NCBI RefSeq assembly: GCF_014117325.1
Contig: NZ_CP059732.1
Location: 7,949,501 to 8,013,500 of the forward strand
Length of the DNA stretch: 64,000 bases
Direction: 5' to 3'
DNA from: Spirosoma foliorum
Lineage (GTDB): Bacteria; Bacteroidota; Bacteroidia; Cytophagales; Spirosomataceae
The notes under the pieces are model-generated. The model saw only the letters and a list, made by a program, of their open reading frames with translations, was not told the DNA's origin and searched no databases. A program made the translations under genes and the position numbers. Positions 6,978 through 60,374 of this stretch are shown piece after piece (position 1 is the first letter of the stretch; every line of letters begins with the position of its first letter).

Positions 6978-7047
6978 AGTTTTTGGTTTTCGGTTTTTGG
7001 TTTGTCAACTGGCAAAATCGAAAACCGGAAACTGAGAACCGAAAACT
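6978..7047. repeat. Imperfect palindromic spacer between nuoL and nuoM
   Basis: Left arm of G/T-rich words (gttttcggttttt, 6978-7004) faces a right arm of complementary words (gaaaaccggaaact..., 7013-7047). The reading frame of nuoM runs open through the right arm, which makes a false N-terminal extension. See the finding on unique palindromic spacers. Confidence 0.6.
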
Positions 7048-7052
7048 TGTTC

Positions 7053-8534
7053 ATGATGCTTACATTATTTCTGATTTTTTATCCTGTCGTAGCAGCTTCG
7101 CTAATCCTGATGATTCGGGGAGAACGGGTAAAGCAGGCGGCTTTGATAGCTGCACTTGTCGAGCTGGCATTTGCGGGTTACGCCTTCATTGGATTTAAAC
7201 CTGATGCAAGTTCGCAATTCGGATTCGACTACGCCTGGATTGGCTCCTTAGGTATTCGATTCAGTGCGGGCATTGATGGAATCAGTGTGTTGCTGGTATT
7301 GCTAACGGGATTGCTAGTTCCGTTCATTATACTGTCTACCTTCGATCGGAGTTACCCTCGTCCTGCTTTGTTTTATGCGCTGATGCTGTATATGCAGGCG
7401 GCCTTAATTGGAGTTTTTACCGCTCGTGATGGCTTTCTGTTCTATTTCTTCTTTGAGGCCGCGCTGATTCCTATTTACTTCCTGGCCGCTATGTGGGGAG
7501 GTGCCAATCGGATTCCAGTTACCTTCAAGTTCTTTGTTTACACCATTTTTGGTAGCCTTTTCATGCTGCTTGCTTTGGTATATTTGTATTATCAGACACC
7601 TGCAACAGCCGTATCGGCACACTCGGCCGCTATTGTTGATTTCTATAAGCTTAACCTGACGCCCGAAGCCGAAACCTGGATTTTCTGGGCATTCTTTATC
7701 GCCTTCGCTATTAAGATGCCGGTGTTCCCATTCCACACCTGGCAACCCGATACCTACGTTGAATCGCCAACGCCCGCTACGATGTTATTGGCTGGTATTA
7801 TGCTCAAGATGGGCGTTTATGGCCTGATTCGGTTTATTCTTCCTATCGTGCCACTTGGGGTTGAAACCTGGGGGAAAACAGCCGTTATTTTATCGGTCAT
7901 TGGTATTATTTACGGGTCTATTATTGCCATTCGCCAGCGCGATATGAAACGATTGATCGCTTATTCATCGTTTTCGCACGTTGGCTTGATGGCTGCTGGC
8001 GTATTCTCGCAAACCGAAACGGGTATGCAGGGAGCCTTGGTACAAATGTTGGCGCATGGTATCAATGTTGTAGGAATGTTCTTTGTTGCCGACATAATTT
8101 TCTCGCGTACGAAAACCAACCAACTTGATCAACTGGGCGGTATTACACAAACCACCCCTAAACTAACAGTCTTCTTCCTAATCATGCTATTAGGAAGCGT
8201 AGCACTGCCATTGACAAACGGATTCATTGGTGAGTTTCTGTTATTACATGGTGTCTTCACCTACAACAATTACCTGGGTTTAGCGGCTGGCTTTACGATT
8301 ATCTTCGGCGCAGTTTATATGCTCCGCATGTTCCAAAAGAGCATGTTTGGCCAGACTTCATCGCGCACAGAGTCATTTGCTGATCTGACCAGTTCTGAAA
8401 GTTGGGTATTTATTCCGCTAGTCGTGCTTGTCTTCTGGATAGGTATCTACCCGCATTCATTTTTGAAAGTAACCGAACCCGCTGTCGCCAATATGATGAA
8501 GTATATCGGCACAACAGCTGTATCCTTGAAATGA
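7053..8534 (+). CDS. nuoM: NADH-quinone oxidoreductase subunit M
   Basis: Antiporter-like proton-pumping subunit of complex I (ND4 homologue) in the inner membrane. About 493 residues from the ATG at 7053; a second ATG follows directly at 7056. Hallmarks are 'FYFFFEAALIPIYFLAAMWGG' with the conserved Glu in helix 5, 'FPFHTWQPDTYVESPTPATM', and 'MKRLIAYSSFSHVGLM' with the central Lys/His. The frame opens at a TTG at 7002, but the added 17 residues are translated spacer repeat, so I chose the ATG just before 'LTLFLIFYPVVAA'. nuoL lies 78 nt upstream and nuoN about 100 nt downstream; both gaps hold palindromic spacers. Confidence 0.96.
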   Translation: MMLTLFLIFYPVVAASLILMIRGERVKQAALIAALVELAFAGYAFIGFKPDASSQFGFDYAWIGSLGIRFSAGIDGISVLLVLLTGLLVPFIILSTFDRSYPRPALFYALMLYMQAALIGVFTARDGFLFYFFFEAALIPIYFLAAMWGGANRIPVTFKFFVYTIFGSLFMLLALVYLYYQTPATAVSAHSAAIVDFYKLNLTPEAETWIFWAFFIAFAIKMPVFPFHTWQPDTYVESPTPATMLLAGIMLKMGVYGLIRFILPIVPLGVETWGKTAVILSVIGIIYGSIIAIRQRDMKRLIAYSSFSHVGLMAAGVFSQTETGMQGALVQMLAHGINVVGMFFVADIIFSRTKTNQLDQLGGITQTTPKLTVFFLIMLLGSVALPLTNGFIGEFLLLHGVFTYNNYLGLAAGFTIIFGAVYMLRMFQKSMFGQTSSRTESFADLTSSESWVFIPLVVLVFWIGIYPHSFLKVTEPAVANMMKYIGTTAVSLK

Positions 8535-8541
8535 GTTATTC

Positions 8542-8620
8542 AGTTCGTAGTTTGTAGTTCGTAGTTGACTGACACAGAAATAACAGGCGTCAGCCAACTA
8601 CGAACTACAAACTACGAACT
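8542..8620. repeat. Near-perfect 32-bp inverted repeat between nuoM and nuoN
   Basis: Arms 8542-8573 and 8589-8620 are complementary at 31 of 32 positions, with a 15-nt loop. Each arm is made of the words 'agttcgtag' and 'tttgtag'. It ends 16 nt before the nuoN start. There is no T-tract typical of a terminator, and both flanking genes need equal expression. Confidence 0.9.
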
Positions 8621-8635
8621 ACAAACTATAAACCT

Positions 8636-10042
8636 ATGCTTCCCATCGTTCTGTTATCGGTTTTTGGCATTGCTCTATTGTTCCTGGGCTTTTTGAAGTC
8701 AAAGGCAGTGTTACTACCAGCTACGCTCTTGTTCCTCGTTGTCGCACTGGGAGTTAACTTCCTCGACTGGAATAAAACGTATCTGTATTTTAACGATATG
8801 CTGCGGACAAATAACCTGTCAATGGTTTTTACCGCTATTATGCTGGGGTCGGCATTTATGGTTGTGGCCTTGTCGAGTAGCTTTATCGATGATGATTCCG
8901 CCCAACCTGCCGAATATTACGCACTTATGCTGTTCTCGCTGGTAGGAGCTGTTATGATGGTTAGCTTCGAAAACCTGATTATGCTATTTGTTGGCGTCGA
9001 AATATTGTCGGTAGCGATGTACGTACTGACAGGTAGCGACAAACGGAACTTACGCTCAAACGAAGCTGCGCTGAAATACTTCCTGATGGGCGCTTTTGCC
9101 ACCGGTATCATGTTGTTCGGTATGGCATTGCTATATGGCGCAACTGGCTCATTTACGCTTTCTGGCCTTGCTTCTTATACAGCACACCCACAAACAGGAT
9201 TGTCTTTACTGATTTATGTTGGCCTGCTGATGTTACTGATTGGCTTACTCTTCAAAGTATCGGCAGCTCCCTTTCATTTCTGGACGCCTGACGTATACGA
9301 TGGAGCACCAACCATTTTCACCGCGTTCATGTCGACAGTGGTGAAGACGGCTGGTTTTGCCGCTTTGTTCCGGTTACTATCTGTTTCCTTCGGTGGGGTT
9401 TACACGTTCTGGTGGACTTTGTTGGCCATCATTACGGCATTGACGCTTATTGCCGGAAATATCACCGCCGTCTACCAAACGAGCTTTAAGCGGATGATGG
9501 CGTACTCCAGTATTTCGCATGCGGGTTATCTGCTGATTGGTTTAGCCTCCTTGGGTACACAAACAAAACAAGCTATTGTGTTTTATTCACTAGCTTATTC
9601 GGTAGCTACAATTGCCGCTTTTGGGGTACTGATACTGGTCTCTCAACAACGAAGTACACAAACGATTACAAGTGAAGGTGTTCTGACCGAAAATTTCGAT
9701 GCCTTCAATGGGCTGGCTCGGCAAAACCCACTCTTAGGTTTGGCAATGACTGTTTCGATGCTGTCATTAGCAGGTATTCCATTGACAGCAGGTTTCTGGG
9801 GCAAATTCTACATGTTTTCAACCGCTGTTGAACGCGGACAAATCTGGCTGCTGGTTGTAGCCGTGCTGATGTCGGCTGTAGGTATTTATTATTACTTCCG
9901 GGTCATTATTGCGATGTACTTCCGAGATGGCGCAACGGAGCCGATTCGGGTTGCACCTTTCTTCCAATACGTACTAGTGGGAGCAATTATCCTGACCATA
10001 GGATTAGGGATTGCACCGGGTTTATTACAAGGCCTATTTTAA
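8636..10042 (+). CDS. nuoN: NADH-quinone oxidoreductase subunit N
   Basis: Antiporter-like proton-pumping subunit of complex I (ND2 homologue), inner membrane, 468 residues. Hallmarks are 'IMLFVGVEILSVAMYVLTG' with the conserved Glu, 'AAPFHFWTPDVYDGAPT', and 'FKRMMAYSSISHAGYLLIGLA' with the Lys on the broken helix. The C-terminus ends in a membrane helix ('VGAIILTIGLGIAPGLL'). It is the last gene of nuoKLMN; the next gene, a GtrA homologue, is 140 nt on and has its own candidate -7 element. No nuoA-J gene occurs in the window. Confidence 0.97.
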   Translation: MLPIVLLSVFGIALLFLGFLKSKAVLLPATLLFLVVALGVNFLDWNKTYLYFNDMLRTNNLSMVFTAIMLGSAFMVVALSSSFIDDDSAQPAEYYALMLFSLVGAVMMVSFENLIMLFVGVEILSVAMYVLTGSDKRNLRSNEAALKYFLMGAFATGIMLFGMALLYGATGSFTLSGLASYTAHPQTGLSLLIYVGLLMLLIGLLFKVSAAPFHFWTPDVYDGAPTIFTAFMSTVVKTAGFAALFRLLSVSFGGVYTFWWTLLAIITALTLIAGNITAVYQTSFKRMMAYSSISHAGYLLIGLASLGTQTKQAIVFYSLAYSVATIAAFGVLILVSQQRSTQTITSEGVLTENFDAFNGLARQNPLLGLAMTVSMLSLAGIPLTAGFWGKFYMFSTAVERGQIWLLVVAVLMSAVGIYYYFRVIIAMYFRDGATEPIRVAPFFQYVLVGAIILTIGLGIAPGLLQGLF

Positions 10043-10117
10043 TAAGTAAACGGCTCTTTCTGAGACCGTATCCTAAGTAATAACATCTGATAGCATAGAC
10101 CTTTGCTATCAAGTGTG

Positions 10118-10125
10118 TACTTTTG
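10118..10125 (+). promoter_or_regulatory. Putative -7 element for the GtrA gene
   Basis: TACTTTTG fits TAnnTTTG, 56 nt before the GTG start of the GtrA gene. The best upstream TTTG is only 12 nt away, so the -33 element is doubtful. Confidence 0.35.
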
Positions 10126-10181
10126 GGGTAATTTGTTGGCCAGATAATAAATAGATTTAACGAATTTCGCCCGGTAAAACA

Positions 10182-10676
10182 GTGAACGTGAGTAGCATAG
10201 AACAGCCAAAACCAAAAGAATATAAGGACTTCTTCTCGTTCTTTTTAACGGCTGTACTGGGTGCATCCATTAATTTTGTCAGCCAGATCTTCTACCGGAA
10301 ATTTTTTGATTTTGATACCAGTGTTTTTTGCGGCTACCTAACCGCAACTGTGCTAACGTTTATTCCGACGAAGCGCTACGCTTTTTCGGCTAAAGACACA
10401 GGTAACACAGGGCGTGAAGCCATTAAATTTTTGGGTATTGCTATTGTTGCCCTTGTAGTTCAGGTATATGTGGCTAAATATACCTTAGAGTGGATTGCTA
10501 CTCCCTTATTTCCCAATACCCCTGAACTCTGGCGTGAGAAAGGTTCGCACGTAGCAGGTATGGGAATGAGCTTCTTAGCCAACTATTTTGGCCATAAACT
10601 CCTGACATTTCGTAGTACAGGTTTTTATGATAAGCTCCTTTCGCGTTCATCAAAAGAACCAGAAAGTAACGTATAG
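10182..10676 (+). CDS. GtrA-family small membrane protein
   Basis: GtrA proteins are four-helix inner-membrane proteins, many thought to flip lipid-linked sugars. The 164 residues show four hydrophobic stretches ('FFLTAVLGASINFVSQIF', 'VFCGYLTATVLTFIPT', 'FLGIAIVALVVQVYVA', 'GMGMSFLANYFGHKLLTF') and the family feature of helix 2 followed by an aromatic/basic 'KRYAFS'; the second half ends with a similar 'KLLTF'. The start is GTG at 10182; a second GTG lies two codons on. It stands alone, with no glycosyltransferase next to it, so the lipid or sugar handled cannot be inferred. The family assignment rests on topology and motif and is fairly good. Confidence 0.78.
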   Translation: MNVSSIEQPKPKEYKDFFSFFLTAVLGASINFVSQIFYRKFFDFDTSVFCGYLTATVLTFIPTKRYAFSAKDTGNTGREAIKFLGIAIVALVVQVYVAKYTLEWIATPLFPNTPELWREKGSHVAGMGMSFLANYFGHKLLTFRSTGFYDKLLSRSSKEPESNV

Positions 10677-10758
10677 AGGTAAACTCTGATTAATTCAACT
10701 TCAAATAGGATTTTTTGGTGTGCTAAGTACCTAATTGTAAATTTATTGCAGGGTATTA

Positions 10759-10787
10759 TTGCATTCACTAAGAAAAAAGTATATTTG
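10759..10787 (+). promoter_or_regulatory. Promoter of the small lipoprotein gene
   Basis: TTG (10759-10761), 18 nt, then TATATTTG (10780-10787), matching TAnnTTTG, 33 nt before the ATG. Confidence 0.6.
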
Positions 10788-10820
10788 TAGCTGGAAACCT
10801 AAAATATCACTGAGAAGGTA

Positions 10821-11012
10821 ATGAAAAAAGTTATCGCTTTATTGTTCGTTGGTAGCATGCTGACATTTGCTGCTTGCCAAAGCAAACCTAAGACAGAAGA
10901 AACCACTACGGATTCGACTGCAACTATGTCAACCGACACTACAACAATGGCTACGGATTCTGCATCTACAATGATGGCTGATTCTGCTGCTGCTGACACC
11001 ACGAAGAAATAA
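10821..11012 (+). CDS. Small Thr/Ser/Asp-rich lipoprotein, unknown function
   Basis: A 63-residue protein beginning MKKVIALLFVGSMLTFAAC, a clear lipoprotein signal peptide with lipobox 'TFAAC', so the mature product would start at Cys19 and be membrane-anchored. The remaining ~44 residues are low-complexity Thr, Ser, Asp and Ala with tandem-like 'TDSTATMSTDTTTMATDSAS' and no predicted fold. It has its own promoter and a strong terminator 20 nt downstream, so it is a monocistronic, probably well expressed gene despite its size. Similar short lipoproteins are frequent in Cytophagales, but I know of no function. Confidence 0.82.
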   Translation: MKKVIALLFVGSMLTFAACQSKPKTEETTTDSTATMSTDTTTMATDSASTMMADSAAADTTKK

Positions 11013-11032
11013 TTTTCTTCGCGCAAGAATTT

Positions 11033-11060
11033 AAAAAGCCTTATTTTTATAAGGCTTTTT
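11033..11060 (+). terminator. Rho-independent terminator of the lipoprotein gene
   Basis: Perfect 12-bp stem (11033-11044 with 11049-11060), 4-nt loop, flanked by an A-run and followed by a T-run (cttttttgttttt). Confidence 0.92.
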
Positions 11061-11073
11061 TGTTTTTAAGACG

Positions 11074-11709
11074 TTGACAAACGTATTTACTACGCATATT
11101 CCCCCGATGGCTGTTGAGTACTGCCATCAACTTCTACGGGATTATAAATTTCACTTTCGGATCGTAAAACCCCGCCGGACACGTTTAGGTGACTTCCGGG
11201 TATTGCCACACAATCAGACCCAGATAACGGTTAATACGAACCTAAATCCGTACGCGTTTTTAATCACTTATGTGCATGAAGTAGCCCATGCGGCTGTTCA
11301 TCTTCAGCACGTAGCACAGCGAAGATCCCGGCGGGTTAAGCCACATGGGGAAGCCTGGCAAATGGCCTTTCAGCAGCTCATGCAACCCCTGTTGACTGAA
11401 GCTGTTTTCCCGGCGGCCATCCTGCGTCCACTTACGCATTACATGGCTAATCCTGGCGCTACAACCTATTCACACCCTGCATTAATTCTGGCATTACGAC
11501 AGTTTGATCCGCAACCAATACAAACTATACCAGAGAATCGGGTATTACTTCGGGATGTATCGGAAGGTAAGACTTTTCAATTAGCTCAAAAGACGTATAT
11601 ACGAGGTACGCTACGGCGTACTCGCGTCGTTTGTAAGGAAGTTACATCGGGAAAATCATACGCCGTTCTGGCTCACGCCTGGGTGTCAATAATGATGAAT
11701 GATGAATGA
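11074..11709 (+). CDS. SprT-like zinc metalloprotease-domain protein
   Basis: SprT/Spartan-fold protein of 211 residues. The zinc-binding helix is 'YVHEVAHAAVH', an HExxH motif (HEVAH), and a further His in 'KPHGEAWQMAF' is the likely third ligand. The C-terminal part ('LAQKTYIRGTLRRTRVVCKE') resembles the beta-rich tail of these proteins. The start is a TTG at 11074, immediately after the upstream terminator; an ATG at 11107 would remove the 'FTTHIPP' segment that I expect to be conserved, so I kept TTG. The last codons overlap the porU start by 11 nt and lie in the left arm of a palindromic repeat, so the two genes are probably co-transcribed. The substrate is unknown. Confidence 0.82.
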   Translation: MTNVFTTHIPPMAVEYCHQLLRDYKFHFRIVKPRRTRLGDFRVLPHNQTQITVNTNLNPYAFLITYVHEVAHAAVHLQHVAQRRSRRVKPHGEAWQMAFQQLMQPLLTEAVFPAAILRPLTHYMANPGATTYSHPALILALRQFDPQPIQTIPENRVLLRDVSEGKTFQLAQKTYIRGTLRRTRVVCKEVTSGKSYAVLAHAWVSIMMNDE

Positions 11710-11809
11710 TAAATGCGGAATAAACTATAGTCTACGAGAATGGAGGAAGCAAGCAGTTAGAAAGGGACTGTTTATTCTACTGATCATTCATCATTTATCA
11801 TTCATCATT
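11698..11809. repeat. Inverted repeat overlapping the sprT-like end and the porU signal peptide
   Basis: Perfect 18-bp arms at 11698-11715 and 11792-11809, with the same words (aatgatga / tcattcat) extending both arms imperfectly. The left arm spans the SprT-like stop and porU start; the right arm encodes 'HHLSFII' of the porU signal peptide. Confidence 0.85.
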
Positions 11810-14800
11810 TGCCCTTCGAAAGCCCAGTCTGTCCTGCGCGAGGGAATATGGGTGAAAATTGGCGTTACAGAATCTGGGATTTATCGACTTTCTCAAGCCC
11901 AGCTGATTCAATTAAATCCTGCTTTTGCGACCGCCGATCCAAGGCGATTACGGCTCTATGGTAATGGCGGAGCTGTATTACCACAACCGAATGCCACGCC
12001 ACGGGCTTCTGATTTAATCGAAAATGCAATTCAGGTATCAGGTGAAGCCGATGGTCGATTCGATGCGGGAGATGCTCTACTATTTTTTGGCCAAAGTCCT
12101 CATGCAATTCGTTACGATTCAACGGCTAAACGATTCGCTCATCAACTCAATTTTTATTCCGACACAACCTTCTACTTTCTGACGATTGGGGCTTCAAATG
12201 GCCTGCGTGTCGCTGACCGTTCAGCGGGCTCGCTGGGTGCTACTGCAACTGTTACGACCTTCGATGACTATCAGTTTCACGAACTGGATCTGCTGAAGTT
12301 GCCGTCTGTCCGCTCTGGCCGGGAATGGTTAGGCGAATACCTAACTACGGACACAACCAAAGTTGTGTTATTTGATGTACCGGGGCTGGTAGCCAATACT
12401 CCAGTCCGATTAGCCGCATCAGTTGTTTCGGGAGCGACTGTATCCACCCAATTTCGACTTCAACTCAATGATCAGTTAGTAGGTACCATGCCCATGACGC
12501 CCATTTCTGGATATGAATATGATTATCAGGGCATAGCTCGGACAGACACATTTTTAGCTAAACTAACAACTGCCGATAGTCCTATTCGCCTGGCCATTAC
12601 ATTTCGTAAGAATGGCTTATACTCGGCGCAGGGCTATCTGAATTATTTGTCGGCGCAAGTCAAGCGGGAGCTGCGTCAGTATGATAAGCCAACATGGGTA
12701 CGGCGATTACCCGCTGGTCAATATACTATTAAACAGTCGTCTTCTGGTTTGCGTGTGTGGGATGTAACAAGCCCGTCTGTCCCCATTTCGCAGACGTATA
12801 CCCTTTCATCGGCACAGGAAGCTGGGTGGCTGGCTTCGCGTTCAGGGGACTACTTTTTATTTACAGATTCACAGGTTTTAGCGCCCGTATCACTACAAAG
12901 CATCTCGAATCAGGATTTGCATAGTCAGACTACTGCCGACTTGATTATCGTAAGTCCAGCGGCCTGGGTAGATCAGGCAGAACGATTAGCGAAATTTCGG
13001 CGCGAGCATGATCTGTTGTCTGTTCAGGTTGTTACGACGCAACAGGTTTATAACGAGTTTGGCTCAGGCCAACCCGATCCGACGGCCATTCGGGATATGG
13101 CTCGATACTTTTACCTGAAGCAACCGGCTAAGCTCAAGTACCTATTGCTTTTTGGCGATGCGACTTATGATTATCGAAATATTTCGGGGCAGGTTAGTGC
13201 GGCACAATTGGCGAACATGGTGCCTGTATACGAAAGTCGGGAATCACTGCATCCGGTTACGAGCTATTCCTCCGACGATTATTTTGGCTTTATGGATACT
13301 AATGAAGGGGAGTGGCCGGAGACTACTACGGGCGACTACCTGTTAGATATTGGTGTGGGCAGATTACCCGTAAAATCGGCAGATGAAGCCAAAACCGTTG
13401 TTGATAAGCTTATTCGCTATAGTTCAGATGCCTCATTAACTGGCGATTGGCAAAGTCGGATTACCCTTGTTGCCGACGATGGTGATTATAATATTCACCA
13501 GCAGGATGCCGATTTGATGGCGAGAAATATTGAGAAAATCGCGCCTGCGTATCGCCCAGAACGTGTTTTTCTGGACGATTATCCACAAGAAAACACATCG
13601 GATGGTCAAAAAGCCCCAATTGTTAATCAATTAATTAATCAGGCAGTTACTGACGGGCGGCTGATTATCAATTATAGTGGGCATGGGGGCGTAATAGGAC
13701 TGGCTGATGAGCAAGTGGTAACCCTTCAGGATATTCTTTCCTGGAGGAACAGCCGACTTCCCTTATTCGTGACAGCTACCTGCCAGTTCGGTCGGTATGA
13801 TGATCCGAACGTTAATTCAGGGGCAGAACTAACCTTATTAAGTCGAACGGGAGGAGGAATTGGACTGCTGACAACCACCCGCCCAGTTTATGCCAATACG
13901 AATTTACTCTTAAATGAAGCATTCTATAATACCGTTTTCACACCGGTGAATGGACAAATGCCTCGCTTGGGCGATGTGATGCGGGGCACGAAAAACAATA
14001 GTTTGAGTGGTGCTGTTAACCGAAATTTTGCACTTCTGGGCGATCCATCTATGACACTGGCCTATCCACAGGCAAAGGCTGTGCTTACACAAGTCAATGG
14101 GAAAGGCGTGACTACTACTCGCCAGGACACCCTCAAAGCATTACAGACGGTCGAGTTAACTGGTGAAATTCGGCAGCAAAGCCAGCGAGTAACTGATTTT
14201 ACGGGTACCATTCGATTGTCTCTTTACGATAAGGCTGTGACCCATACAACCCTCGGTTCTGAAGCGGGTAGCCCTAAAATGACGTATCAGGCGTTTAGCA
14301 ACCCTATTTTTACAGGACAGGTACCTGTTCAGCAAGGTAAATTCGTTGCTCGCTTTACGATGCCGAAAGATATTGACTATACCGTCGGCCCAGGCAAACT
14401 TTATCTATATGCCGTAAAATCGGATAGTTTGTTAGCGGCAGGCGGAAGCTACGATAGTTTGCTAATTGGTGGCAGTGTTTTTGCTAATAGTATCGATACG
14501 CAGCCACCCGTAATAAAGCTCAGTGTGATAGGAGGGAAGCTTGACGGTGACGTTGTTCATTGTACGGGGCCAGATGTCCCGCTTCTTATTAATCTGTCAG
14601 ATAATAAAGGGATTAATATTGCCAGATCGGGCCTTGGCCATGAGCTGACGGCTCAGCTTGGTGACCAGGCAGCGGTTATCCTGAACGAAAATTATGTGGC
14701 GAACAGCGCAGATGGACGTCAGGGCGAGGCCAGCTATACATTTCGAAACGTAGTATCGGGTACGTATACGATTCGGGCCAAAGCGTGGGATATTAACAAT

Positions 14801-15160: not shown

Positions 15161-15210
15161 TTTAAAAAGACTTAAAATCGTCTCATTTTTTCTAATCCAA
15201 CGATTCATTG

Positions 15211-16457: not shown

Positions 16458-16461
16458 AATT

Positions 16462-16544
16462 AAAGAGTGAAAGAGCGAAAGAGTGAGTGAGTGAAGGCCA
16501 AACTGGCAAATTCACTCACTCACTCTTTCGCTCTTTCACTCTTT
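16462..16544. repeat. Perfect 34-bp inverted repeat between porV and the M16 gene
   Basis: Arms 16462-16495 and 16511-16544 are exactly complementary over 34 bp, with a 15-nt loop that is itself partly palindromic (gccaaactggc). The arms consist of the words 'aaagagtg' and 'agtgagtg'. It ends 10 nt before the next start codon. Confidence 0.93.
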
Positions 16545-16554
16545 TGCTCTTTAT

Positions 16555-18638: not shown

Positions 18639-18668
18639 GCTAAGAAACCTTATTTCAGGATAAATCAA

Positions 18669-18707
18669 CGCCCCGGCGTTGCGCGAAAAAGGCGTAACTT
18701 CGGGGCG
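18669..18707 (+). terminator. GC-rich hairpin after plsY
   Basis: cgccccg (18669-18675) pairs with cggggcg (18701-18707) around an inner partial stem; 'aactttttaga' follows. Plausible plsY terminator. Confidence 0.55.
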
Positions 18708-18716
18708 AACTTTTTA

Positions 18717-18789
18717 GATATATGGTATATGATATAAGATGTATGATATGGCTATTGGCTTATCTATCTTATATCATATACCATATATC
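18717..18789. repeat. Perfect 24-bp palindromic spacer upstream of the M20 dipeptidase
   Basis: Arms 18717-18740 and 18766-18789 are complementary over 24 bp; built of 'atatgatat'/'gtatatg' words. Further 'catacatc' words after the right arm can pair with 'gatgtatg' after the left arm. It ends 12 nt before the chosen ATG. Confidence 0.9.
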
Positions 18790-18801
18790 ATACATCAAAG
18801 T

Positions 18802-21700: not shown

Positions 21701-21783
21701 TATAGAATGTATTATATATGATGTATGAGAGAATTACATATCATATATAACACATCATACATACTACATTATACATCATATAT
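21701..21783. repeat. Imperfect A/T-rich palindromic spacer before purB
   Basis: Words such as 'tatatgatgtatga' and their complements 'tacatcatata' alternate through the whole 83-nt gap. It reaches to the purB start codon. Same architecture as the other unique spacers but less exact. Confidence 0.65.
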
Positions 21784-23301: not shown

Positions 23302-23499
23302 TAATATTAACGTGAATAATGGATGAAATCTGAAATTATTGACTGATTATCAGTTATTTATAATATCGTTTTTTGTCATCTCGACGCCAGGAGGGATCTT
23401 CGGCAACTGATTATTTACCGAAGATCCCTCCTGGCGTCGGGATGACAAAAAATTAGTATAATTCTATTCGTAAATCATCCATTATTCACGTTAATATTA
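23302..23499. mobile_element. MITE-like palindromic element, 198 bp
   Basis: Perfect 25-bp terminal inverted repeats (23302-23326 and 23475-23499) enclose a second, internal inverted repeat with 35-nt arms (23369-23403 and 23418-23452, one mismatch) around a 14-nt loop. The internal arm contains 'ccaggagggatcttcgg'. There is no coding capacity. Such nested palindromes fit a non-autonomous transposable element or a large REP/BIME-type element; no transposase with matching ends is in the window. Confidence 0.72.
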
Positions 23500-47383: not shown

Positions 47384-48187
47384 TTAACCCTTCGATAATT
47401 CGGTTGCCCGAATTTGAGCCGCTTTGATTCCTGTCACTAATGTATCGGATAAACCCCCGCTTTCAAATGCGCGGAGTGCCGCTTCGGTTGTGCCGCCTTT
47501 AGAGGCTACTGCTTTAATAAGATCGTCCAGCGATTTATCGGCGTTGTTAATGAGGTGATATGCGCCGAGCATCGTTTGTTTAACCAACAAAGCCGCCACT
47601 GCGTCGTCGAATCCCATTTGTTTGCCAGCCTCAATCATCGACTTTACGACGTAATAGAAATAAGCCGGACCGCTACCACTAAGGGCCGTTACGGCATCAA
47701 TCATGGCTTCATCTTCCAGGAATATAGATCGGCCTGTAGCATTGATCAGGTTTTCGATTCTACGTAGGTTGTTTAGATCCACTTCTTTGGCCGCCGTGAA
47801 ACCGGTGATGCCCATACCAAGCATGGCAGGTGTATTAGGCATAGCCCGAACGACTAAAGGGTGACCCAACTTTTCCTGAATTTGTGCGATTGGGATGCCT
47901 GCCATGATCGACAGAATCACTTGATTGGGCTGAATAATATCGCGTAAGGCTTCGTGAACGCTGTTAAAGTCCTGTGGCTTTACCGACAGAATAATCAAAT
48001 CCGTTTCGCCAACGTGTGGCCCAATGGTATCAACAACAACGCCCGCTTTTTCGGCTTTTAACGATTCGGAGCGGTCGGCACTTTTTTCGATTAAGAGTAA
48101 ATCTTCTTTTTTTACAAGGTCATACTGCAAAAACGATTTGGCAAAAGCCATACCCATGTTGCCGCAACCTACAATAGCAATTTTCAT
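47384..48187 (-). CDS. proC: Pyrroline-5-carboxylate reductase
   Basis: Last enzyme of proline synthesis; reduces 1-pyrroline-5-carboxylate with NAD(P)H in the cytosol. 267 residues, normal length. 'MKIAIVGCGNMGMAFAKSFL' is the nucleotide-binding N-terminus, and the ProC signature region 'VVRAMPNTPAMLGMGITGF' and 'VTALSGSGPAYFYYVVKSM' are clear, with the C-terminal 'VASKGGTTEAALRAF'. It lies 92 nt downstream of the TlpA-like gene, the gap holding a palindromic spacer, so gatB, the TlpA-like gene and proC probably form one transcription unit. Confidence 0.97.
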   Translation of the reverse strand: MKIAIVGCGNMGMAFAKSFLQYDLVKKEDLLLIEKSADRSESLKAEKAGVVVDTIGPHVGETDLIILSVKPQDFNSVHEALRDIIQPNQVILSIMAGIPIAQIQEKLGHPLVVRAMPNTPAMLGMGITGFTAAKEVDLNNLRRIENLINATGRSIFLEDEAMIDAVTALSGSGPAYFYYVVKSMIEAGKQMGFDDAVAALLVKQTMLGAYHLINNADKSLDDLIKAVASKGGTTEAALRAFESGGLSDTLVTGIKAAQIRATELSKG

Positions 48188-48279: not shown

Positions 48280-49413
48280 CTATTTTACCTGTAAAACTTC
48301 TTCTAATTTTTGCTCTAAAGCGGGGCCACGTAGATTTTTGGCGATGATCTTACCGTCTTTGTCAAGCAGGAATGTTGCGGGAATGGCCTGAACACCATAT
48401 TGTTGAGCGGCTGCCGATTGCCAGAATTTCAAATCTGAAACATGCGTCCAGGTGAGGTTATCATTGCGAATGGCCTTAGTCCAGTTCGCTTTGGCCTGAT
48501 CGAGCGAGACACTATAAATCGCAAATCCTTTGTCTTTATACTTGTTATACATCCGAACCACATTTGGGTTTTCGGCTCGGCAAGGGCCACACCAAGACGC
48601 CCAGAAGTCAATCAGAACATATTTGCCACGCAAAGACGAAAGGGGAACAGGTGTTCCGGTTGTGTCGTTCAGGGCAATTTCCGGGGCCGACGCGCCAACC
48701 GATACGCCTTTGATCCGGGCTACACGGCCAATCAGCGATTTAGCGTGTGGGCTATTCGGATTCTCCTTCTCGAACCGTTGGGCCAGCGCATCGTAGGTGG
48801 CAAAATCGGTATCGATATTGATGAAATTCAACGCGAAAAGCGACACTAAGGATGTTCCCATTTCCGGCAACATCGCCTTTACTTTGTTGACAACGTCCTG
48901 TTCGGCATTCTGATAATCCTGCTCGATCTGGGCGATTTTCTTGTTGTCTTTTTTCTCTGTAGCCGCTGCTACCTGTTTATTCCAGTTGGAAACTTTGGTC
49001 TCCATATCGGTACGGAGCGCCATTAGTTTGCCATAATAGTCCATGTTTTTGGAGCCAGAGACCGTTGCATGACCTACCTGCCCGGTTTTAGCATCCATCT
49101 GAAAACCATCGGCCACCACATTCAGGGTTTCGCCCCCTTCCACTAGCAGGGCCATTTTCTGACCTCCCCCTACGTTAAGCACAAATACCTCACCGCCATC
49201 GGCCACTTTGCCGTTGAGCGTGAATGTATTACCCGCAACGATTTTGGTCGAGTCAATTTTATGAGTTGGCTGAGAGTTCGTTTCCAGATAAACGTAACTG
49301 CCTGGGGTTGCTTTATTGACTTTGCCCGTAACCGTAAACGGTTTTGTGCTTTGAGCATTGGTTACGAGGCTGAGCGCCATGAAACCAGCGATACCGAATA
49401 CTGCGTTTTTCAT
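48280..49413 (-). CDS. TlpA-like thioredoxin-fold protein with DUF4369-type N-terminal domain
   Basis: Exported thiol-disulphide oxidoreductase of 377 residues. A signal peptide (MKNAVFGIAGFMALSLVTNA) is followed by a beta-rich DUF4369-like domain (about 25-115, 'FTVTGKVNKATPGSYVYLE') and a helical linker. The AhpC/TlpA thioredoxin domain covers about 240-377: 'VLIDFWASWCGPCRAENPN' with the CxxC active site and 'VQAIPATFLLDKDGKI' with the cis-Pro. The family keeps periplasmic cysteines reduced, for example in cytochrome c maturation, but this architecture is common in Bacteroidota without a known specific role. Its ATG overlaps the gatB stop by 4 nt (ATGA), so it is coupled to gatB. Confidence 0.92.
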   Translation of the reverse strand: MKNAVFGIAGFMALSLVTNAQSTKPFTVTGKVNKATPGSYVYLETNSQPTHKIDSTKIVAGNTFTLNGKVADGGEVFVLNVGGGQKMALLVEGGETLNVVADGFQMDAKTGQVGHATVSGSKNMDYYGKLMALRTDMETKVSNWNKQVAAATEKKDNKKIAQIEQDYQNAEQDVVNKVKAMLPEMGTSLVSLFALNFINIDTDFATYDALAQRFEKENPNSPHAKSLIGRVARIKGVSVGASAPEIALNDTTGTPVPLSSLRGKYVLIDFWASWCGPCRAENPNVVRMYNKYKDKGFAIYSVSLDQAKANWTKAIRNDNLTWTHVSDLKFWQSAAAQQYGVQAIPATFLLDKDGKIIAKNLRGPALEQKLEEVLQVK

Positions 49414-52820: not shown

Positions 52821-52943
52821 CATACATTTTAAGAAGGAAGGGTTAACAGGAAAGCTATGGAGAGAAAAATAGACCACTGACGAAAGGACATGTACGGCAT
52901 TTTCTTTCGCTTGGTTTCTTTTTCCGGAATGAGTTTCCTAAAA

Positions 52944-54673: not shown

Positions 54674-54747
54674 GAACCTTCCTCTTTTTTAACCAAAAAC
54701 TACTCAATCAATATGTCTTAGACGCAGCTTCGTCCAGAAAGTATCGC

Positions 54748-55263: not shown

Positions 55264-55625
55264 GGCTGTTAAGTTTTTCTGTTGAATCACATCTGCATAT
55301 CCACTAGACAAAAAAACAACCAGTCTTTTTAGAAATAGAATAAAAGTCTGAATTTAGAGTTTAAGTATTTGATATTGAGCTATTTGTGTAGTGTTAAATT
55401 TGCGTGCCAAACTTTTTTACTGATAGCCTAGTTGTGGGGAGTGTGGAATATTTCCCCCATTCTGGGGAATCCACACTGTGGATTTTGTTTAGTTTTTTAA
55501 CAAAAAAAATTGAACAGGGATAGTTAGAGCCGTAGACTAGACCGCTAACAAACGATAATTGGCATAGTCTGAATAAATCTGACCATGCCAATTCGGAGAA
55601 TAAAACCCTGATAGAACAACTAGTC
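55264..55625. other. 362-nt gap upstream of the ECF sigma gene
   Basis: A/T-rich, no gene I can support. A hairpin-prone 'ttccccca...tggggaa' stretch lies near 55450-55470 (ggggagtgtggaatatttccccca, ttctggggaatccacactgtgg). This is a candidate leader structure, not convincing as a terminator. A plus-strand TAAATTTG near 55396 has no gene downstream. Confidence 0.4.
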
Positions 55626-56594
55626 TTAAATAAGTCCCTCCTTTAGTAAATCGTGTAGATGCACAAAGCCATGAACCCGCCCTTCTTCGGCGACAATGAG
55701 CTGTGTAATATCTCGCTCTTGCATCAACTGTAAAGCGGCTACAGCATACTCATCAGGAGCTACGCAAACGGGGCCAACCGTCATGGCATCTTTAGCACAG
55801 AGTTGCCAGAAAGAATCATGCTCATAGGCCACTCGTCTAATATCACCGTCCGTAACAATTCCGATTAATAAACCTGCTTCGTCAACCACTGCTGTGGCCC
55901 CTAAACGGTTGGCCGAAATGGTGAAAATAACGTCTTTGATTGTAGCGTCTGGAAGCACTTGTGGGCACTGATTATGGGGAAAAATATCAGCTACTTTCAG
56001 ATATAATTTTTTACCCAACGACCCACCGGGATGGTAACGCGCGAAATCCTGTCGAGTGAAACCTCTAAGCTCTAAAAGACTGACAGCCAGGGCGTCGCCT
56101 AAAGCAAGAGCCACGGTTGTACTGGTTGTAGGAGCCAGATTCAGTGGATCGGCTTCGTGTTCGGCGAAGGCATGAAGCACGTGGTCGGCGTGGTGAGCCA
56201 GATACGAATCGCGCGCGCTGACAAGCGCAATTAACCGAACGCTCGTTCGCTTCAAAAGTGGTAATAGAACTTTGATTTCGGCAGTATTTCCACTCTTCGA
56301 AATAATGAGTACCACATCATTATCCTGAATCATGCCTAAGTCGCCATGAATGGCATCGGCTGCGTGCATAAACAGCGAAGGTGTACCCGTCGAATTCATG
56401 GTGGCTACGATTTTCTGACCAATCAGAGCGCTTTTTCCAACCCCCGTTACTACCAAACGCCCTGTTGTGTTTAGTAACGTTTCTACGGTTGCATCAAATT
56501 GGTCGTCAAGTAAATCGACGGCATTACGGATGGCATCAGCTTCGGCCAGGAGTACCGCGCGGGCAATAGTCTTAGGATTTTTTATTACTTTCAA
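55626..56594 (-). CDS. kdsD: SIS/CBS sugar-phosphate isomerase (KdsD/GutQ/KpsF family)
   Basis: Arabinose 5-phosphate isomerase, converting ribulose 5-phosphate to arabinose 5-phosphate for Kdo of the outer-membrane lipopolysaccharide. 322 residues. The SIS domain covers about 35-170 ('RLVVTGVGKSALIGQKIV', 'GDLGMIQDNDVVLIISKSGN', 'LNLAPTTSTTVALALGDALA', the last being the family's His/Thr-rich active-site signature region). Two CBS domains follow ('VIFTISANRLGATAVVDEAG', 'AALQLMQERDITQLIVAEEG'). No other Kdo genes are adjacent. It diverges from recQ and has a good -7 element. Confidence 0.92.
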   Translation of the reverse strand: MKVIKNPKTIARAVLLAEADAIRNAVDLLDDQFDATVETLLNTTGRLVVTGVGKSALIGQKIVATMNSTGTPSLFMHAADAIHGDLGMIQDNDVVLIISKSGNTAEIKVLLPLLKRTSVRLIALVSARDSYLAHHADHVLHAFAEHEADPLNLAPTTSTTVALALGDALAVSLLELRGFTRQDFARYHPGGSLGKKLYLKVADIFPHNQCPQVLPDATIKDVIFTISANRLGATAVVDEAGLLIGIVTDGDIRRVAYEHDSFWQLCAKDAMTVGPVCVAPDEYAVAALQLMQERDITQLIVAEEGRVHGFVHLHDLLKEGLI

Positions 56595-56650
56595 TGTCAG
56601 TTTTGATGAACAGGAAAACTTTGCTGTGTATATTCGCTAACTTTATATAG

Positions 56651-56658
56651 CAAAGATA
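56651..56658 (-). promoter_or_regulatory. Putative -7 element of the kdsD-like gene
   Basis: Minus-strand TATCTTTG fits TAnnTTTG, 57 nt before the ATG at 56594. No TTTG at the expected distance. Confidence 0.4.
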
Positions 56659-56701
56659 CGGCAAGCAAATAGAGTAAAGTAACTTTTGTACGATTTGTAG
56701 A

Positions 56702-58909
56702 ATGATGCAGGTTGATGAGGCAGTCCACGCGACGCTTAAAGAACGACTGAAAGAAATATTTGGATATAGTCAATTTAGGGGCGAACAGGAAATCATTATT
56801 TACAGCATCCTGGCGGGTCGAAACACGTTTGTTATTATGCCTACTGGGGCAGGTAAGTCGCTGTGTTACCAGCTGCCTGCTATTGTTAGTGATGGTACAG
56901 CGGTTGTTATCTCTCCCCTAATTGCCCTGATGAAAAATCAGGTTGACCAGTTAAACGCCTTTGGAATCAATGCGCAGTTTTTGAATTCGACGCTCTCAAA
57001 AGCCGAGATGAATAAGGTCAAAAAGGACACGTTGAATGGTACACTCAAGCTGCTTTATATTGCGCCAGAATCCTTAACGAAGGAAGAGAATTTGGATTTT
57101 TTAAAGAAAGCCAACATTTCTTTCGTTGCTATTGACGAAGCTCACTGTATTTCTGAATGGGGCCATGACTTCCGGCCCGAGTATCGAAAAATACGAGGTA
57201 TTGTCGATAACATTGGCAATTTGCCCGTTATCGCGCTGACTGCTACGGCGACGCCTAAAGTACAGCAGGATATTCAGAAAAACCTCCAGATGGAGGACGC
57301 CAACCTCTATAAAACCTCGTTCAATCGGAAAAATCTTTACTACGAAATAAAGCCAAAAGTCGACGCCAAAAAGCAGCTTATTAAGTACGTTAAGCAGAAC
57401 AAAGGCAAGTCGGGTATTATTTATTGCCTTAGTCGGAAAACGGTTGAGGAAATTGCCGAATTACTTAGCGTCAATGACGTAAAGGCGCTTCCTTATCACG
57501 CGGGCCTGGACCCACAAACACGAATGCACAATCAGGATGCTTTCCTGAACGAAGATGTTGATGTTGTTTGTGCTACTATTGCGTTCGGGATGGGTATTGA
57601 TAAGCCCGATGTTCGATTCGTAATTCACTACGATGCTCCCAAATCGCTCGAAGGGTATTATCAGGAAACGGGCCGTGCAGGGCGTGATGGCCTGGAAGGC
57701 AATTGTCTGATGTTCTACAGCTACGACGATATTGTCAAGCTGGAGAAGTTCAATAAAGATAAACCCGTTACCGAACGCGATAATGCCAAGCATTTACTGG
57801 CCGAAATGGTTTCATACGCAAATCTGGGCGTGTGTCGTCGTCGGCAATTGCTAGGTTATTTCGGCGAGTTTATGGATAAGGATTGCGGTTTTTGTGACAA
57901 CTGCCTGAAACCGACTGAGAAAATCAAAGTGCAGCATGAAGTTGTTCTGGCTTTGCAAACCGTGTTGCAAACAGACCAACGCTTCGATGTTGCCCATTTG
58001 GCTGATGTATTGACCGCTACCAACAATCAGTATGTTACCAGCTATGAGCACGATCGGCTCGCTGTGTATGGTAAAGGGCGTGAATTCAACGAAGACTGTA
58101 ATTTCTGGTGTTCGCTTATTAAGCAGATCGCTATTTACGGCTATCTCGAAAAAGATGTCGATAACTATGGTATCCTGAAATTGACGCAGCGGGGTTTGAA
58201 TTATATCGAAGATCCATACCCAATTACGCTGGCCAAAGATCATGATTACGAGCAGGCCGTTGAAACAAAAGACGACGACGATAAAGATACCACGCCATCG
58301 TCGGGCGGAGTGGCTTATGATGAAGAGCTGCTTGGGTTACTGAAAGCACTTCGGAAAAAAATTGCCAAAGAGAAGAATTTGCCTCCCTATGTTATCTTCC
58401 AGGAGACATCGATGGAGGAAATGGCAACAACGTATCCAACCACGCGCGAAGAAATGGCGCAGATTAACGGTGTGGGTATGGGTAAAGTGCAGAAGTTTGG
58501 TCGACCCTTTATCGACCTGATCTCTAAGTATGTTGAAGAAAATGAGATTGAAACAGCTCAAGATGTAGTTGTTAAATCGACTGTTAATAAATCGAAAGTC
58601 AAGATCTTCATTATTCAGCAGATCGACCGGAAAGTTGATCTCGATGAAATAGCCGAGTCGAAATCGTTATCGATGGAGGACTTAATGGAAGAAATTGAGC
58701 ATATCTGTTACTCGGGTACGCGGCTCAACCTTGATTATTACATCAATCAGGTAATGGATGAAGACCGGCAGGATGAAATTTACGACTACTTCATGCAGGC
58801 CGACAGTGATAACATTGCTGTAGCTATGCGCGAATTTGGGGGCGATGATTTCACTGAACAAGATCTGCGCCTAATGCGCATTAAATTCCTGTCGGAAGTA
58901 GCAAACTAA
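56702..58909 (+). CDS. recQ: ATP-dependent DNA helicase RecQ
   Basis: 3'-5' DNA helicase of recombination and repair. 735 residues, about 120 more than the E. coli protein. Motif 0 'GYSQFRGEQEIII', motif I 'IMPTGAGKSLCYQLPA', motif II 'AIDEAHCISEWGHDFRPEY', motif III 'ALTATATPKVQQDI' and motif VI 'YYQETGRAGRDGLEG' are complete. The RQC zinc site is 'CRRRQLLGYFGE...CGFCDNC'. An HRDC domain follows (about 540-615, 'ELLGLLKALRKKIAKEKNL'). The last ~110 residues ('SKVKIFIIQQIDRKVDLDEI' to the end) are the extra helical domain usual in Bacteroidota RecQ. Two adjacent ATG codons mark the start. Confidence 0.96.
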   Translation: MMQVDEAVHATLKERLKEIFGYSQFRGEQEIIIYSILAGRNTFVIMPTGAGKSLCYQLPAIVSDGTAVVISPLIALMKNQVDQLNAFGINAQFLNSTLSKAEMNKVKKDTLNGTLKLLYIAPESLTKEENLDFLKKANISFVAIDEAHCISEWGHDFRPEYRKIRGIVDNIGNLPVIALTATATPKVQQDIQKNLQMEDANLYKTSFNRKNLYYEIKPKVDAKKQLIKYVKQNKGKSGIIYCLSRKTVEEIAELLSVNDVKALPYHAGLDPQTRMHNQDAFLNEDVDVVCATIAFGMGIDKPDVRFVIHYDAPKSLEGYYQETGRAGRDGLEGNCLMFYSYDDIVKLEKFNKDKPVTERDNAKHLLAEMVSYANLGVCRRRQLLGYFGEFMDKDCGFCDNCLKPTEKIKVQHEVVLALQTVLQTDQRFDVAHLADVLTATNNQYVTSYEHDRLAVYGKGREFNEDCNFWCSLIKQIAIYGYLEKDVDNYGILKLTQRGLNYIEDPYPITLAKDHDYEQAVETKDDDDKDTTPSSGGVAYDEELLGLLKALRKKIAKEKNLPPYVIFQETSMEEMATTYPTTREEMAQINGVGMGKVQKFGRPFIDLISKYVEENEIETAQDVVVKSTVNKSKVKIFIIQQIDRKVDLDEIAESKSLSMEDLMEEIEHICYSGTRLNLDYYINQVMDEDRQDEIYDYFMQADSDNIAVAMREFGGDDFTEQDLRLMRIKFLSEVAN

Positions 58910-58911
58910 TT

Positions 58912-58997
58912 GATTTACGGTTTACGATTTACGGTTTATGATTTTCTGAAGAATGCAGGCAATCAACTCGTAACTCGTAAATCGTAACTCGTAAATC
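58912..58997. repeat. Palindromic spacer between recQ and purD
   Basis: Left arm 58912-58936 (gatttacggtttacg...) and right arm 58972-58997 (...cgtaaatc) pair at about 22 of 26 positions; words 'gatttacg' and 'cgtaaatc'. It ends 5 nt before the purD ATG. Confidence 0.75.
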
Positions 58998-59002
58998 GGT
59001 AC

Positions 59003-60289
59003 ATGAATATACTAATACTGGGGTCTGGTGGGAGAGAGCACGCCTTTGCGTGGAAATTGGCGCAAAGTCCATTATGTGATAAATTATTTGTGGCACCGGG
59101 TAATGCCGGTACAGCGCAGGTTGCCACTAATTTAGCCGTTAGTTACACTAATTTTTCGGCCGTTGCTGATACAATTCGGGATAACAAAATTGACTTGCTG
59201 ATTGTAGGTCCAGAAGAGCCATTGGTGAAGGGGATTGTTGATTTCCTGCGCCAACAGCCTGATTTAGCTAGCCTGCGGATAGTTGGACCCGATGCAAAGG
59301 GAGCCCAGCTTGAAGGTAGTAAGGATTTCTCGAAGCAGTTTATGGTTCGTTACGGCATTCCGACAGCCGCTTCACAAACATTTACAGCAGCAACCCTTCA
59401 GGAAGGCTTAGCCTATTTGGAAACACATTCGCTGCCAATTGTTTTAAAAGCGGATGGATTAGCCGCCGGAAAGGGAGTTATAATTGCTGAAACGCTGGCC
59501 GATGCAAAAACCGCGATGAATGAAATGCTCGACGGGAATAAGTTTGGCGACGCGGGCAGTAAAGTTGTTGTGGAGCAGTTTTTGCGAGGTATTGAATTGT
59601 CGGTGTTTGTTTTGTGCGACGGGGAGAACTACAAAATTCTGCCTGAAGCGAAAGATTATAAACGCATCGGCGAAGAAGATACAGGCCCAAATACGGGGGG
59701 AATGGGGGCTGTATCTCCTGTCGTATTTGCCAGTCAGTCATTTCTTCGGAAAGTTGAAGACAAAGTTGTAAAACCAACGCTGGCCGGTTTAAAACAGGAA
59801 GGTATTCATTATCAGGGTTTTATTTTTGTGGGCCTGATGAAAGTAAACGGTGAGCCTTTTGTTATTGAATATAATGCCCGAATGGGCGACCCTGAAACGG
59901 AAGTTGTATTACCACGACTTCAGAATGATTTTGTTGAATTAATGGTGGCAACCGCCGATGGAGAACTGGACCAGATTTCGGTTCAAGTCTCTCCTCAAAC
60001 TGCGGTAACAACCATGCTCGTATCGGGTGGTTATCCTGGTGATTATGTGACCGGTAAAATCATTTCGGAATTAGATCGTTTAGAAGATGTACTAGCGTTC
60101 CATGCCGGGACGTCAGAAAAAAATGGTCAGGTGCTGACTAATGGTGGGCGGGTACTGGCGATAACAGCACAGGCCAATTCGCTGGAAAATGCCGTTCGGA
60201 AATCGCAGGAAGCGGCCCGATTGGTGCAATTTGACGGGAAACAGTACCGTAAAGACATTGGGCTTGACCTGATTCGGTACTCCGACTAA
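59003..60289 (+). CDS. purD: Phosphoribosylamine-glycine ligase (GARS)
   Basis: Second enzyme of purine synthesis: joins glycine to phosphoribosylamine with ATP in the cytosol. 428 residues. 'MNILILGSGGREHAFAWKLA' is the typical N-terminus, 'LPIVLKADGLAAGKGVIIAE' the ATP-grasp loop, and the PurD signature is 'EYNARMGDPETEVVLPRL'. 'EDTGPNTGGMGAVSP' holds further ATP-grasp residues. It lies 93 nt after recQ, separated by a palindromic spacer, and before ricT with another such spacer, so the three may be one transcript. Confidence 0.97.
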   Translation: MNILILGSGGREHAFAWKLAQSPLCDKLFVAPGNAGTAQVATNLAVSYTNFSAVADTIRDNKIDLLIVGPEEPLVKGIVDFLRQQPDLASLRIVGPDAKGAQLEGSKDFSKQFMVRYGIPTAASQTFTAATLQEGLAYLETHSLPIVLKADGLAAGKGVIIAETLADAKTAMNEMLDGNKFGDAGSKVVVEQFLRGIELSVFVLCDGENYKILPEAKDYKRIGEEDTGPNTGGMGAVSPVVFASQSFLRKVEDKVVKPTLAGLKQEGIHYQGFIFVGLMKVNGEPFVIEYNARMGDPETEVVLPRLQNDFVELMVATADGELDQISVQVSPQTAVTTMLVSGGYPGDYVTGKIISELDRLEDVLAFHAGTSEKNGQVLTNGGRVLAITAQANSLENAVRKSQEAARLVQFDGKQYRKDIGLDLIRYSD

Positions 60290-60290
60290 C

Positions 60291-60374
60291 GAAGTTATAA
60301 AGTCAGATAGTTATGTAGTTATAAAGTTGCCATTGAGCACCAATAACTTTACAACCTTACGACTTTACAACTTC
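60291..60374. repeat. Palindromic spacer between purD and ricT
   Basis: Outer arms 60291-60304 (gaagttataaagtc) and 60361-60374 pair at 13 of 14 positions; the interior repeats the words 'agttataaag' and 'ctttacaac'. It precedes the ricT ATG by 15 nt. Confidence 0.7.

Follow-up and report, generated by a model that had tools for sequence, protein, structure and literature searches.

Why should gap after gap between bacterial genes hold a palindrome built of short, tandemly repeated words? The question is raised by a stretch of 64,000 nucleotides (nt) from Spirosoma foliorum (positions 7949501-8013500 of a single-contig genome of 8.85 Mb; henceforth the window), in which a sequence-only reading had flagged inverted repeats (IRs) at ten places and had named template switching or fold-back DNA synthesis as a possible source. 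We propose that these short-word palindromes are made and kept perfect by DNA template switching between their two arms, an explanation which we hold to be probable, with appreciable doubt. They are real, abundant and lineage-specific, and represent a variant of a mutational process already on record: switching of the template from one IR arm to the other has been described to yield arm homogenisation and spacer inversion (PMC8604942) and has been argued to be able to create and maintain hairpins (PMC8794818). The sequence-only reading knew of no described mechanism for such palindromes; template switching is one. Support for template switching or fold-back synthesis comes from three observations taken together, namely arms that co-vary, spacers that invert and the lack of a strong preference for G-U mismatches.

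All ten flagged places were found to hold an IR (seven strong and three weak by ungapped score), and at all ten Tandem Repeats Finder detected a tandem unit of 7 or 8 nt. The predicted RNA fold of seven places was unmatched by any of 200 shuffles, while 2/200 folded as well at 4954-5063, 3/200 at 60290-60400 and 10/200 at 21701-21783. We then took a census of 864 kb (40 stretches of 20 kb across the genome plus the window), scoring the best IR in each gap of 30-400 nt and excluding gaps outside that range; genes came from a simple coding-score caller, compared by eye with the other gene list, and their start positions are approximate. An IR was called at an ungapped score of 14 or more. Arms were considered periodic (i.e., made of tandem words) at a cut-off of 0.6 in the census, placement, lag, T-run and range counts, and of 0.55 in the word-group, mismatch and whole-gap compensation counts. 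IRs were present in 117 of 314 same-direction gaps, 37 of 58 convergent gaps and 7 of 74 divergent gaps, where dinucleotide shuffles gave 0.05, 0.0 and 0.0, respectively, and in none of 314 coding control segments (shuffle expectation 0.05). The recurrence of palindromic spacers and their excess over shuffled DNA are thereby confirmed, and their earlier description as a feature of co-directional gaps captures one part of a class that extends to convergent gaps. Chance or low complexity, to which the AT-rich words and the shuffles of the 21701 gap might point, is refuted for the class by the same shuffles (at most 0.05 IRs per class); it has a negligible probability and could at most be true of single weak members. 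Of the 117 same-direction IRs, 47 had periodic arms, 24 of them with a lag of 7, 13 with a lag of 8 and 10 with some other lag; among convergent and divergent IRs the share was 11/37 and 3/7, respectively. The non-periodic remainder seems to comprise both terminator-like hairpins and members of dispersed palindrome families.

The word palindromes are tied to the ends of genes. The 41 periodic same-direction IRs with lags of 7-9 start at a median of 7 nt past the stop codon, and 90% of them start within 20 nt of it (60% if placed uniformly; 78% vs. 30% in the 18 gaps of at least 130 nt). No excess of closeness was seen on the start-codon side (49% vs. 61% uniform). Consistently, identity at each array's own lag (33 IRs) ranged from 0.21 to 0.36 before the stop codon and rose to 0.42 across it, to 0.46 over the three positions that follow and to 0.65-0.77 at positions 3-17. 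It is thus to the stop codon, and not to the following start, that the palindromes are anchored; the nearness to start codons from which the sequence-only reading took its bearings arises because gaps are short. One exception is the IR at 18717, which starts 78 nt past the stop behind a terminator-like hairpin and is carried by only some species. Moreover, an IR probability of 0.37 per gene 3' end predicts 0.61 for convergent gaps, close to the observed 0.64.

Such placement, in convergent gaps too, is what one would expect of transcription terminators, and IR peaks past bacterial stop codons have been ascribed to terminators (PMC13155455). These peaks resemble our palindromes in their concentration past stops and in spacers that vary more than arms, but they have short spacers, and the passages seen contain no word arrays. 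Periodic IRs of S. foliorum have a median loop of 25.5 nt, and TTTT lies near the end of the 3' arm in only 3 of 44, so that the reported lack of a T-run holds for the great majority, though not without exception. Furthermore, IRs sit between nuoL, nuoM and nuoN, and at 18639-18801 the word IR comes only after a distinct hairpin that is itself terminator-like. We therefore consider termination a very improbable explanation.

The first line of evidence for template switching comes from orthologous gaps. We compared four gaps (nuoM-nuoN, porV-M16, purB and M20) at 30 Spirosoma loci each; M16 stands for the YfmF-like gene 3' of porV, which fell below the NCBIfam cut-off and which we take to encode an M16-type peptidase. 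In the nuoM-nuoN gap an IR was scored at only 2 of 30 loci (2 were too short to score), meaning that its hairpin is strong in few species; the sequence differs between all but close relatives, often with C-poor words followed by G-poor ones. IRs were found at 20 loci in the porV-M16 gap (16458-16554 in the window, itself among the 20), at 12 in the purB gap (2 unscored; some IRs of non-word type) and at 6 in the M20 gap. Across the 20 species with a porV-M16 palindrome, 604 of 613 pairs were Watson-Crick even though the mean pairwise identity of the 5' arms was just 0.64. With each species given its own pairing, 1077 columns had changed over 189 non-independent species pairs, 958 of them double-sided to Watson-Crick, 99 single-sided and 20 otherwise. 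Close genomes (pairs G001/G019, G007/G010 and G035/G026; syntenic regions, median protein identity about 98%) yielded 51 changed pairs, 28 double-sided to Watson-Crick, 21 single-sided (12 G-U, 8 A-C, 1 other) and 2 other, from 36 gap pairs with alignable arms that take word and non-word IRs together; 6 more gap pairs were dropped. These figures replace earlier whole-gap alignment counts (66/158 for close pairs in both directions, 989/2683 for the M16 gap), in which repeat registers were misaligned. The arms hence co-vary. By eye, most of the 20 species hold related 8-mer words at porV-M16, which suggests that words are inherited with the locus.

The second line is spacer inversion. Among 57 close-pair gaps with an IR in both genomes, the spacer was in the same orientation in 34, inverted in 5 (by small margins), unrelated in 13 and ambiguous in 5. 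Five inversion events were supported against shuffled spacers (P values uncorrected for the pairs examined): L176/L179 in the porV-M16 gap and a second gap, of word type, in G007/G010 (0/5000 shuffles each), L152/L155 in the porV-M16 gap and a convergent non-word gap in G001/G019 (both P = 0.001), and L159 in the porV-M16 gap, inverted relative to L163 (P = 0.005) and to L164 (P = 0.008). Anchors chosen by hand set the spacer limits for L159, L163, L164 and the second G007/G010 gap. Apparent inversions of L162 relative to L166 and L168, noticed by eye, found no support against shuffled spacers (P = 0.25 and 0.51), nor did two short-loop convergent cases. A similarity of 0.65 in either orientation was reached by 0.028 of random spacer pairs, such that about 5 of 190 M16 pairs would be expected; we observed 12.

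Paired substitutions could instead be ordinary compensatory mutations in hairpins selected as RNA insulators at gene ends, either like ribosome termination structures or as mRNA stabilisers, with pairing constrained and sequence free. This is a serious possibility, although we think it rather unlikely. It fits the tie of IRs to 3' ends (37% of same-direction, 64% of convergent and 9% of divergent gaps) and the strong RNA folds between nuo genes, and hairpins just past stop codons are reported to limit re-initiation (PMC7518266). The ribosome termination structure of that work is, like ours, a stable hairpin directly past the stop, but it is defined by folding energy and its effect on re-initiation, whereas the Spirosoma palindromes are known from sequence and predicted folds. 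One way to tell the two explanations apart is the type of mismatch: by our reasoning, a transition in a Watson-Crick pair should produce G-U as often as A-C if there is no selection for RNA pairing. In periodic IRs we counted 113 G-U vs. 87 A-C in same-direction gaps (P = 0.08) and 22 vs. 22 in convergent gaps (mismatch counts include near-duplicate species), whereas T-run hairpins showed 20 vs. 2 in same-direction gaps (48 hairpins; Fisher P = 0.001 for the difference from same-direction periodic IRs). Other IRs gave 118 vs. 83 in same-direction (P = 0.016) and 40 vs. 48 in convergent gaps. In a separate tally, same-direction periodic IRs of the own genome had 20 vs. 16, or 39 vs. 28 when relaxed, and relaxed same-direction non-periodic IRs 56 vs. 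49. Since mismatches of the word class lean only slightly to G-U, RNA pairing is at most a weak force there, though the 16458 gap does lean that way. Insulation also sits poorly with the inverting spacers and with the many loci that lack an IR (28/30 for nuoM-nuoN, 2 of them too short; 10/30 for porV-M16; 18/30 for purB, 2 of them unscored; 24/30 for M20), and it leaves both the words and the polarity of the arms unexplained.

The IRs of the window, together with the terminator-like hairpin at 18669, are as follows (left arm/right arm).
4959-4983/5023-5047, forward strand: weak word IR before nuoL; TTTCA/TGAAAC words, loop 39, score 10, RNA fold z -3.1.
6978-6997/7014-7033, forward strand: word IR between nuoL and nuoM; GTTTTTGG words, weak score of 11, -33.8 kcal/mol, 0/200 shuffles as good.
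8542-8573/8589-8620, forward strand: 7-mer word IR between nuoM and nuoN; AGTTCGT, arms of 32 nt at 97%, -49.8 kcal/mol, inner end GACTGAC/GTCAGCC.
11691-11715/11785-11809, forward strand: 7-mer word IR (ATGATGA) from the end of an SprT-like open reading frame (11074-11709) to the start of porU; arms of 25 nt at 92%.
16462-16495/16511-16544, forward strand: 8-mer word IR between porV and the YfmF-like gene; AAAGAGYG, perfect arms of 34 nt.
18669-18716, forward strand: terminator-like hairpin after plsY, upstream of the 18717 word IR; core present at 25 of 30 loci by a simple pattern.
18717-18740/18766-18789, forward strand: 7-mer word IR before the M20-type dipeptidase gene; GATATAT/GTATGAT, perfect arms of 24 nt.
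21707-21722/21740-21755 (entry 21707-21780), forward strand: weak 7-mer word IR before purB; ATCATAC, score 13, other words in other species.
48202-48231/48246-48275, reverse strand: GA-rich word IR; arms of 30 nt at 97%, -60.1 kcal/mol.
58912-58933/58976-58997, forward strand: strong 7-mer word IR between recQ and purD; GATTTACG, fold z -7.2.
60307-60327/60362-60382, forward strand: strong 8-mer word IR between purD and a PSP1/ricT-like gene of uncertain start codon; AGTTATAA, fold z -2.6.

Most of these are intergenic, as the sequence-only reading had it, but the IR at 11691-11809 is partly coding: its right arm encodes LLIIHHLSFII in the N-terminal region of PorU, a region that reads as signal-peptide-like. 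An array can therefore extend into coding sequence if the frame allows. The reverse-strand IR is flanked by two reverse-strand genes, one thioredoxin-like (48280-49413) and the other pyrroline-5-carboxylate reductase-like (47384-48187), and gatB is likewise among the genes of the window. A search of Rfam returned no matches at gathering scores. Three further elements were seen alongside these palindromes. The hairpin at 18669-18716 (CGCCCCGGCGTTGCGC...GGCGTAACTTCGGGGCG followed by a T-run) is very similar across Spirosoma, a conservation unusual for a terminator. A dyad, AATGGCAT-N10..11-ATGCCATT, perhaps an operator, precedes the M16-type gene in the 10 of 30 loci that have no word palindrome (L157, L161, L167, L169-L171, L173-L175 and L177). 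Finally, a non-periodic palindrome at 23369-23452 (left arm TTTTTTGTCATCTCGACGCCAGGAGGGATCTTCGG) has similar counterparts in several gaps of the own-genome sample.

To call the palindromes unique, as the sequence-only reading did, is too strong: 68 periodic IRs fall into 28 word groups vs. 48.9 (standard deviation 2.8) for composition-shuffled words, and their words are met again elsewhere in the genome as well as in other species. The arms also have a direction. The first arm holds more G than C in 39 of 41 same-direction and 11 of 11 convergent periodic IRs (50/52), which is true for either strand because a palindrome reads alike on both; non-periodic IRs lack such polarity (39:27 same-direction, 12:11 convergent). 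In gaps that lack an IR, G is only mildly low before starts (G 0.155, C 0.219). The 5' arms of the palindromes contain more A (0.367) than T (0.298). Among the matches listed, the G-bearing arm also led in 12 of 12 close pairs of genome G004 and in 6 of 6 of the own genome. That the period is not divisible by 3 is hardly accounted for by a need for stop codons in all frames, a candidate that we rejected as too weak: stops occurred in 1.62 of 3 frames of the 5' arms vs. 1.45-1.49 when shuffled, and 16 of 53 arms were stopped in all frames. The word TAATGNATAATGNATAATG has 70 overlapping matches in the own genome (0 for its reversed control). Across 59 genomes it has 0-135 per Spirosoma genome (control 0 throughout), while of the 23 non-Spirosoma genomes 2 have a single match each; in two of these 23 the reversed control itself matches, 14 times and once, meaning that other arrays exist there. 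AAAGAGYG arrays number 0-137 per Spirosoma genome and are found in none of the 23 others. Two other motifs recur: GTTGGCTGACGC, a palindrome tip at the inner end of several GTTTACGG-word palindromes (24 matches in the own genome vs. 2 reversed), and CGCACCGGCGGMCCG with close variants, a GC-rich dispersed motif (32 vs. 0 reversed) which by eye lies in the loop or flank of several palindromes and also in the L153 and L154 gaps.

Words so far above their controls (TAATGNATAATGNATAATG, GTTGGCTGACGC) and amplified in particular species (AAAGAGYG) might suggest small dispersing palindromic elements with fast-diverging copies, akin to repetitive extragenic palindromes (REPs) or miniature inverted-repeat transposable elements. 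REPs, too, are palindromes outside genes, but they can be sorted into families with shared tags (PMC3733652), whereas the word IRs have no common consensus, with 28 word groups among 68 IRs. Moreover, a clean insertion of a word palindrome with target duplication was seen in 0 of 6 gap pairs in which only one of two close species has an IR, and at porV-M16 words are inherited with the locus. Of these presence/absence pairs, one non-word case in G007/G010 might represent an insertion next to the stop of about 80-100 nt; in another, a divergent gap, additional sequence at one end pairs with old sequence. We regard dispersal as improbable.

If template switching is responsible, the process would start from a tandem array of a 7-8-nt word past a gene's stop codon. 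The polymerase event itself, as we infer it, would occur during replication, when the nascent strand may jump to, or fold back on, the other arm and copy it; a single switch would make or repair the reverse-complement arm and sometimes flip the spacer. With arms built of tandem words, slippage and switching in a shifted register could alter word number, and the palindrome would presumably grow until halted by coding sequence or promoter constraint. Growth bounded in this way would leave same-direction and convergent gaps filled from just past the stop and make divergent palindromes rare. The RNA hairpin would be at least a by-product, which the cell may tolerate, or mildly benefit from, where genes end. 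Loss of SbcCD as a source of palindrome tolerance was considered and rejected: a full-length sbcC-like gene is present (below the curated cut-off), and the adjacent frame ends sbcD-like; the family search of the own genome gave no sbcD match, and this frame was matched by eye to a relative's sbcD.

Several observations weigh against template switching. Some of them at the same time favour RNA selection: the 16458 gap leans to G-U in imperfect pairs (7 vs. 1 A-C) and in single-sided changes (79 G-U, 16 A-C, 4 other; non-independent species pairs), as do close same-direction pairs (10 vs. 4) and, as given above, the other same-direction IRs. The T-run yardstick itself shows 3 G-U vs. 3 A-C in convergent gaps (16 hairpins). 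Four of the five close-pair gaps classed as inverted were put to the spacer-shuffle test, and two were supported and two not. A first arm richer in G than in C is not predicted by symmetric switching; a 5'-templated model (PMC8794818) does predict an excess of G over C, but also of U over A, where the 5' arms here hold more A than T. Neither the 7/8 period nor the words favoured by each species are accounted for, and the species-specific abundance of words calls for some means of spreading, which switching confined to a single gap does not supply. Last, the mutation event is deduced from a comparison of sequences. Conceivably, Spirosoma has a word-writing process that draws short C-poor words (7-8 nt) from a vocabulary particular to each species and adds them in tandem, in the 5' to 3' direction, behind the ends of genes, with fold-back copying to follow; this would be a telomerase-like or repeat-copying activity at internal sites. 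It is a long shot; if true, palindromes would open with a C-poor arm whichever strand is read, and dialects would differ from species to species.

Template switching in the Spirosoma gaps would matter in two ways. Paired substitutions are usually read as proof of selected RNA structure, but paired changes and spacer flips that come with no strong overall signature of RNA pairing imply that covariation alone could mislead RNA-motif searches. The palindromes also provide each genome with numerous natural sites at which bacterial template switching could be measured and the factors that set word, period and polarity could be tested.

Among known systems, template switching as described in PMC8604942 and PMC8794818 is similar in its maintained complementary arms, paired changes, spacer inversions and perfect stems, but concerns yeast genes and RNA genes rather than the gaps of a bacterial genus with tandem-word arms of fixed polarity. 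Inverted repeats of nematodes, considered to be actively maintained (PMC1803023), likewise conserve structure more than sequence, but concern a eukaryote, in which genes and entire intergenic sequences form the long repeats. TAACTGA heptamer repeats (PMC4679880) are likewise tandem words of 7 nt in intergenic positions, frequently directly ahead of a start codon, and occur in some Bacteroidetes too; unlike ours, they consist of one word in direct orientation, with one indirect repeat in the main genome. An array of this kind (TAACTGA/TAACCGA) stands just before nuoN at L106, an Arcicella metagenome-assembled genome. Word palindromes in Spirosoma were not found described in the literature at the level of titles and abstract starts, where subscription journals are mostly uncovered, so that their absence is unproven.

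Abundance varies even between relatives. IRs with a score of at least 14 occupy 104 of 278 same-direction gaps (37%) in the own sample; for six other Spirosoma, a single region gave 8-12 of 61-77 (10-17%). The arms are periodic in 36 of the 278 and in 2-4 gaps per relative. Five genomes of other Cytophagales (80 kb each, few gaps) held 0-1 periodic IRs per class, and a small E. coli control held no IRs in 10 same-direction gaps. In same-direction gaps around nuoM (76 named loci), no periodic IRs were found in Fibrisoma (25 gaps), Runella (37) or the Arcicella group (31); they were present in 9 of 165 gaps in Spirosoma, 10 of 69 in Larkinella, 4 of 40 in Fibrella/Fibrivirga, 2 of 23 in Siphonobacter, 2 of 175 in Dyadobacter (a 10-nt GTCA word) and 2 of 90 in other genera (one in Arsenicibacter). 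One record, L048, named Flavobacterium sp. SUN052, has a NuoM 77% identical to that of the window and ranks among Spirosomataceae, and is possibly mislabelled.

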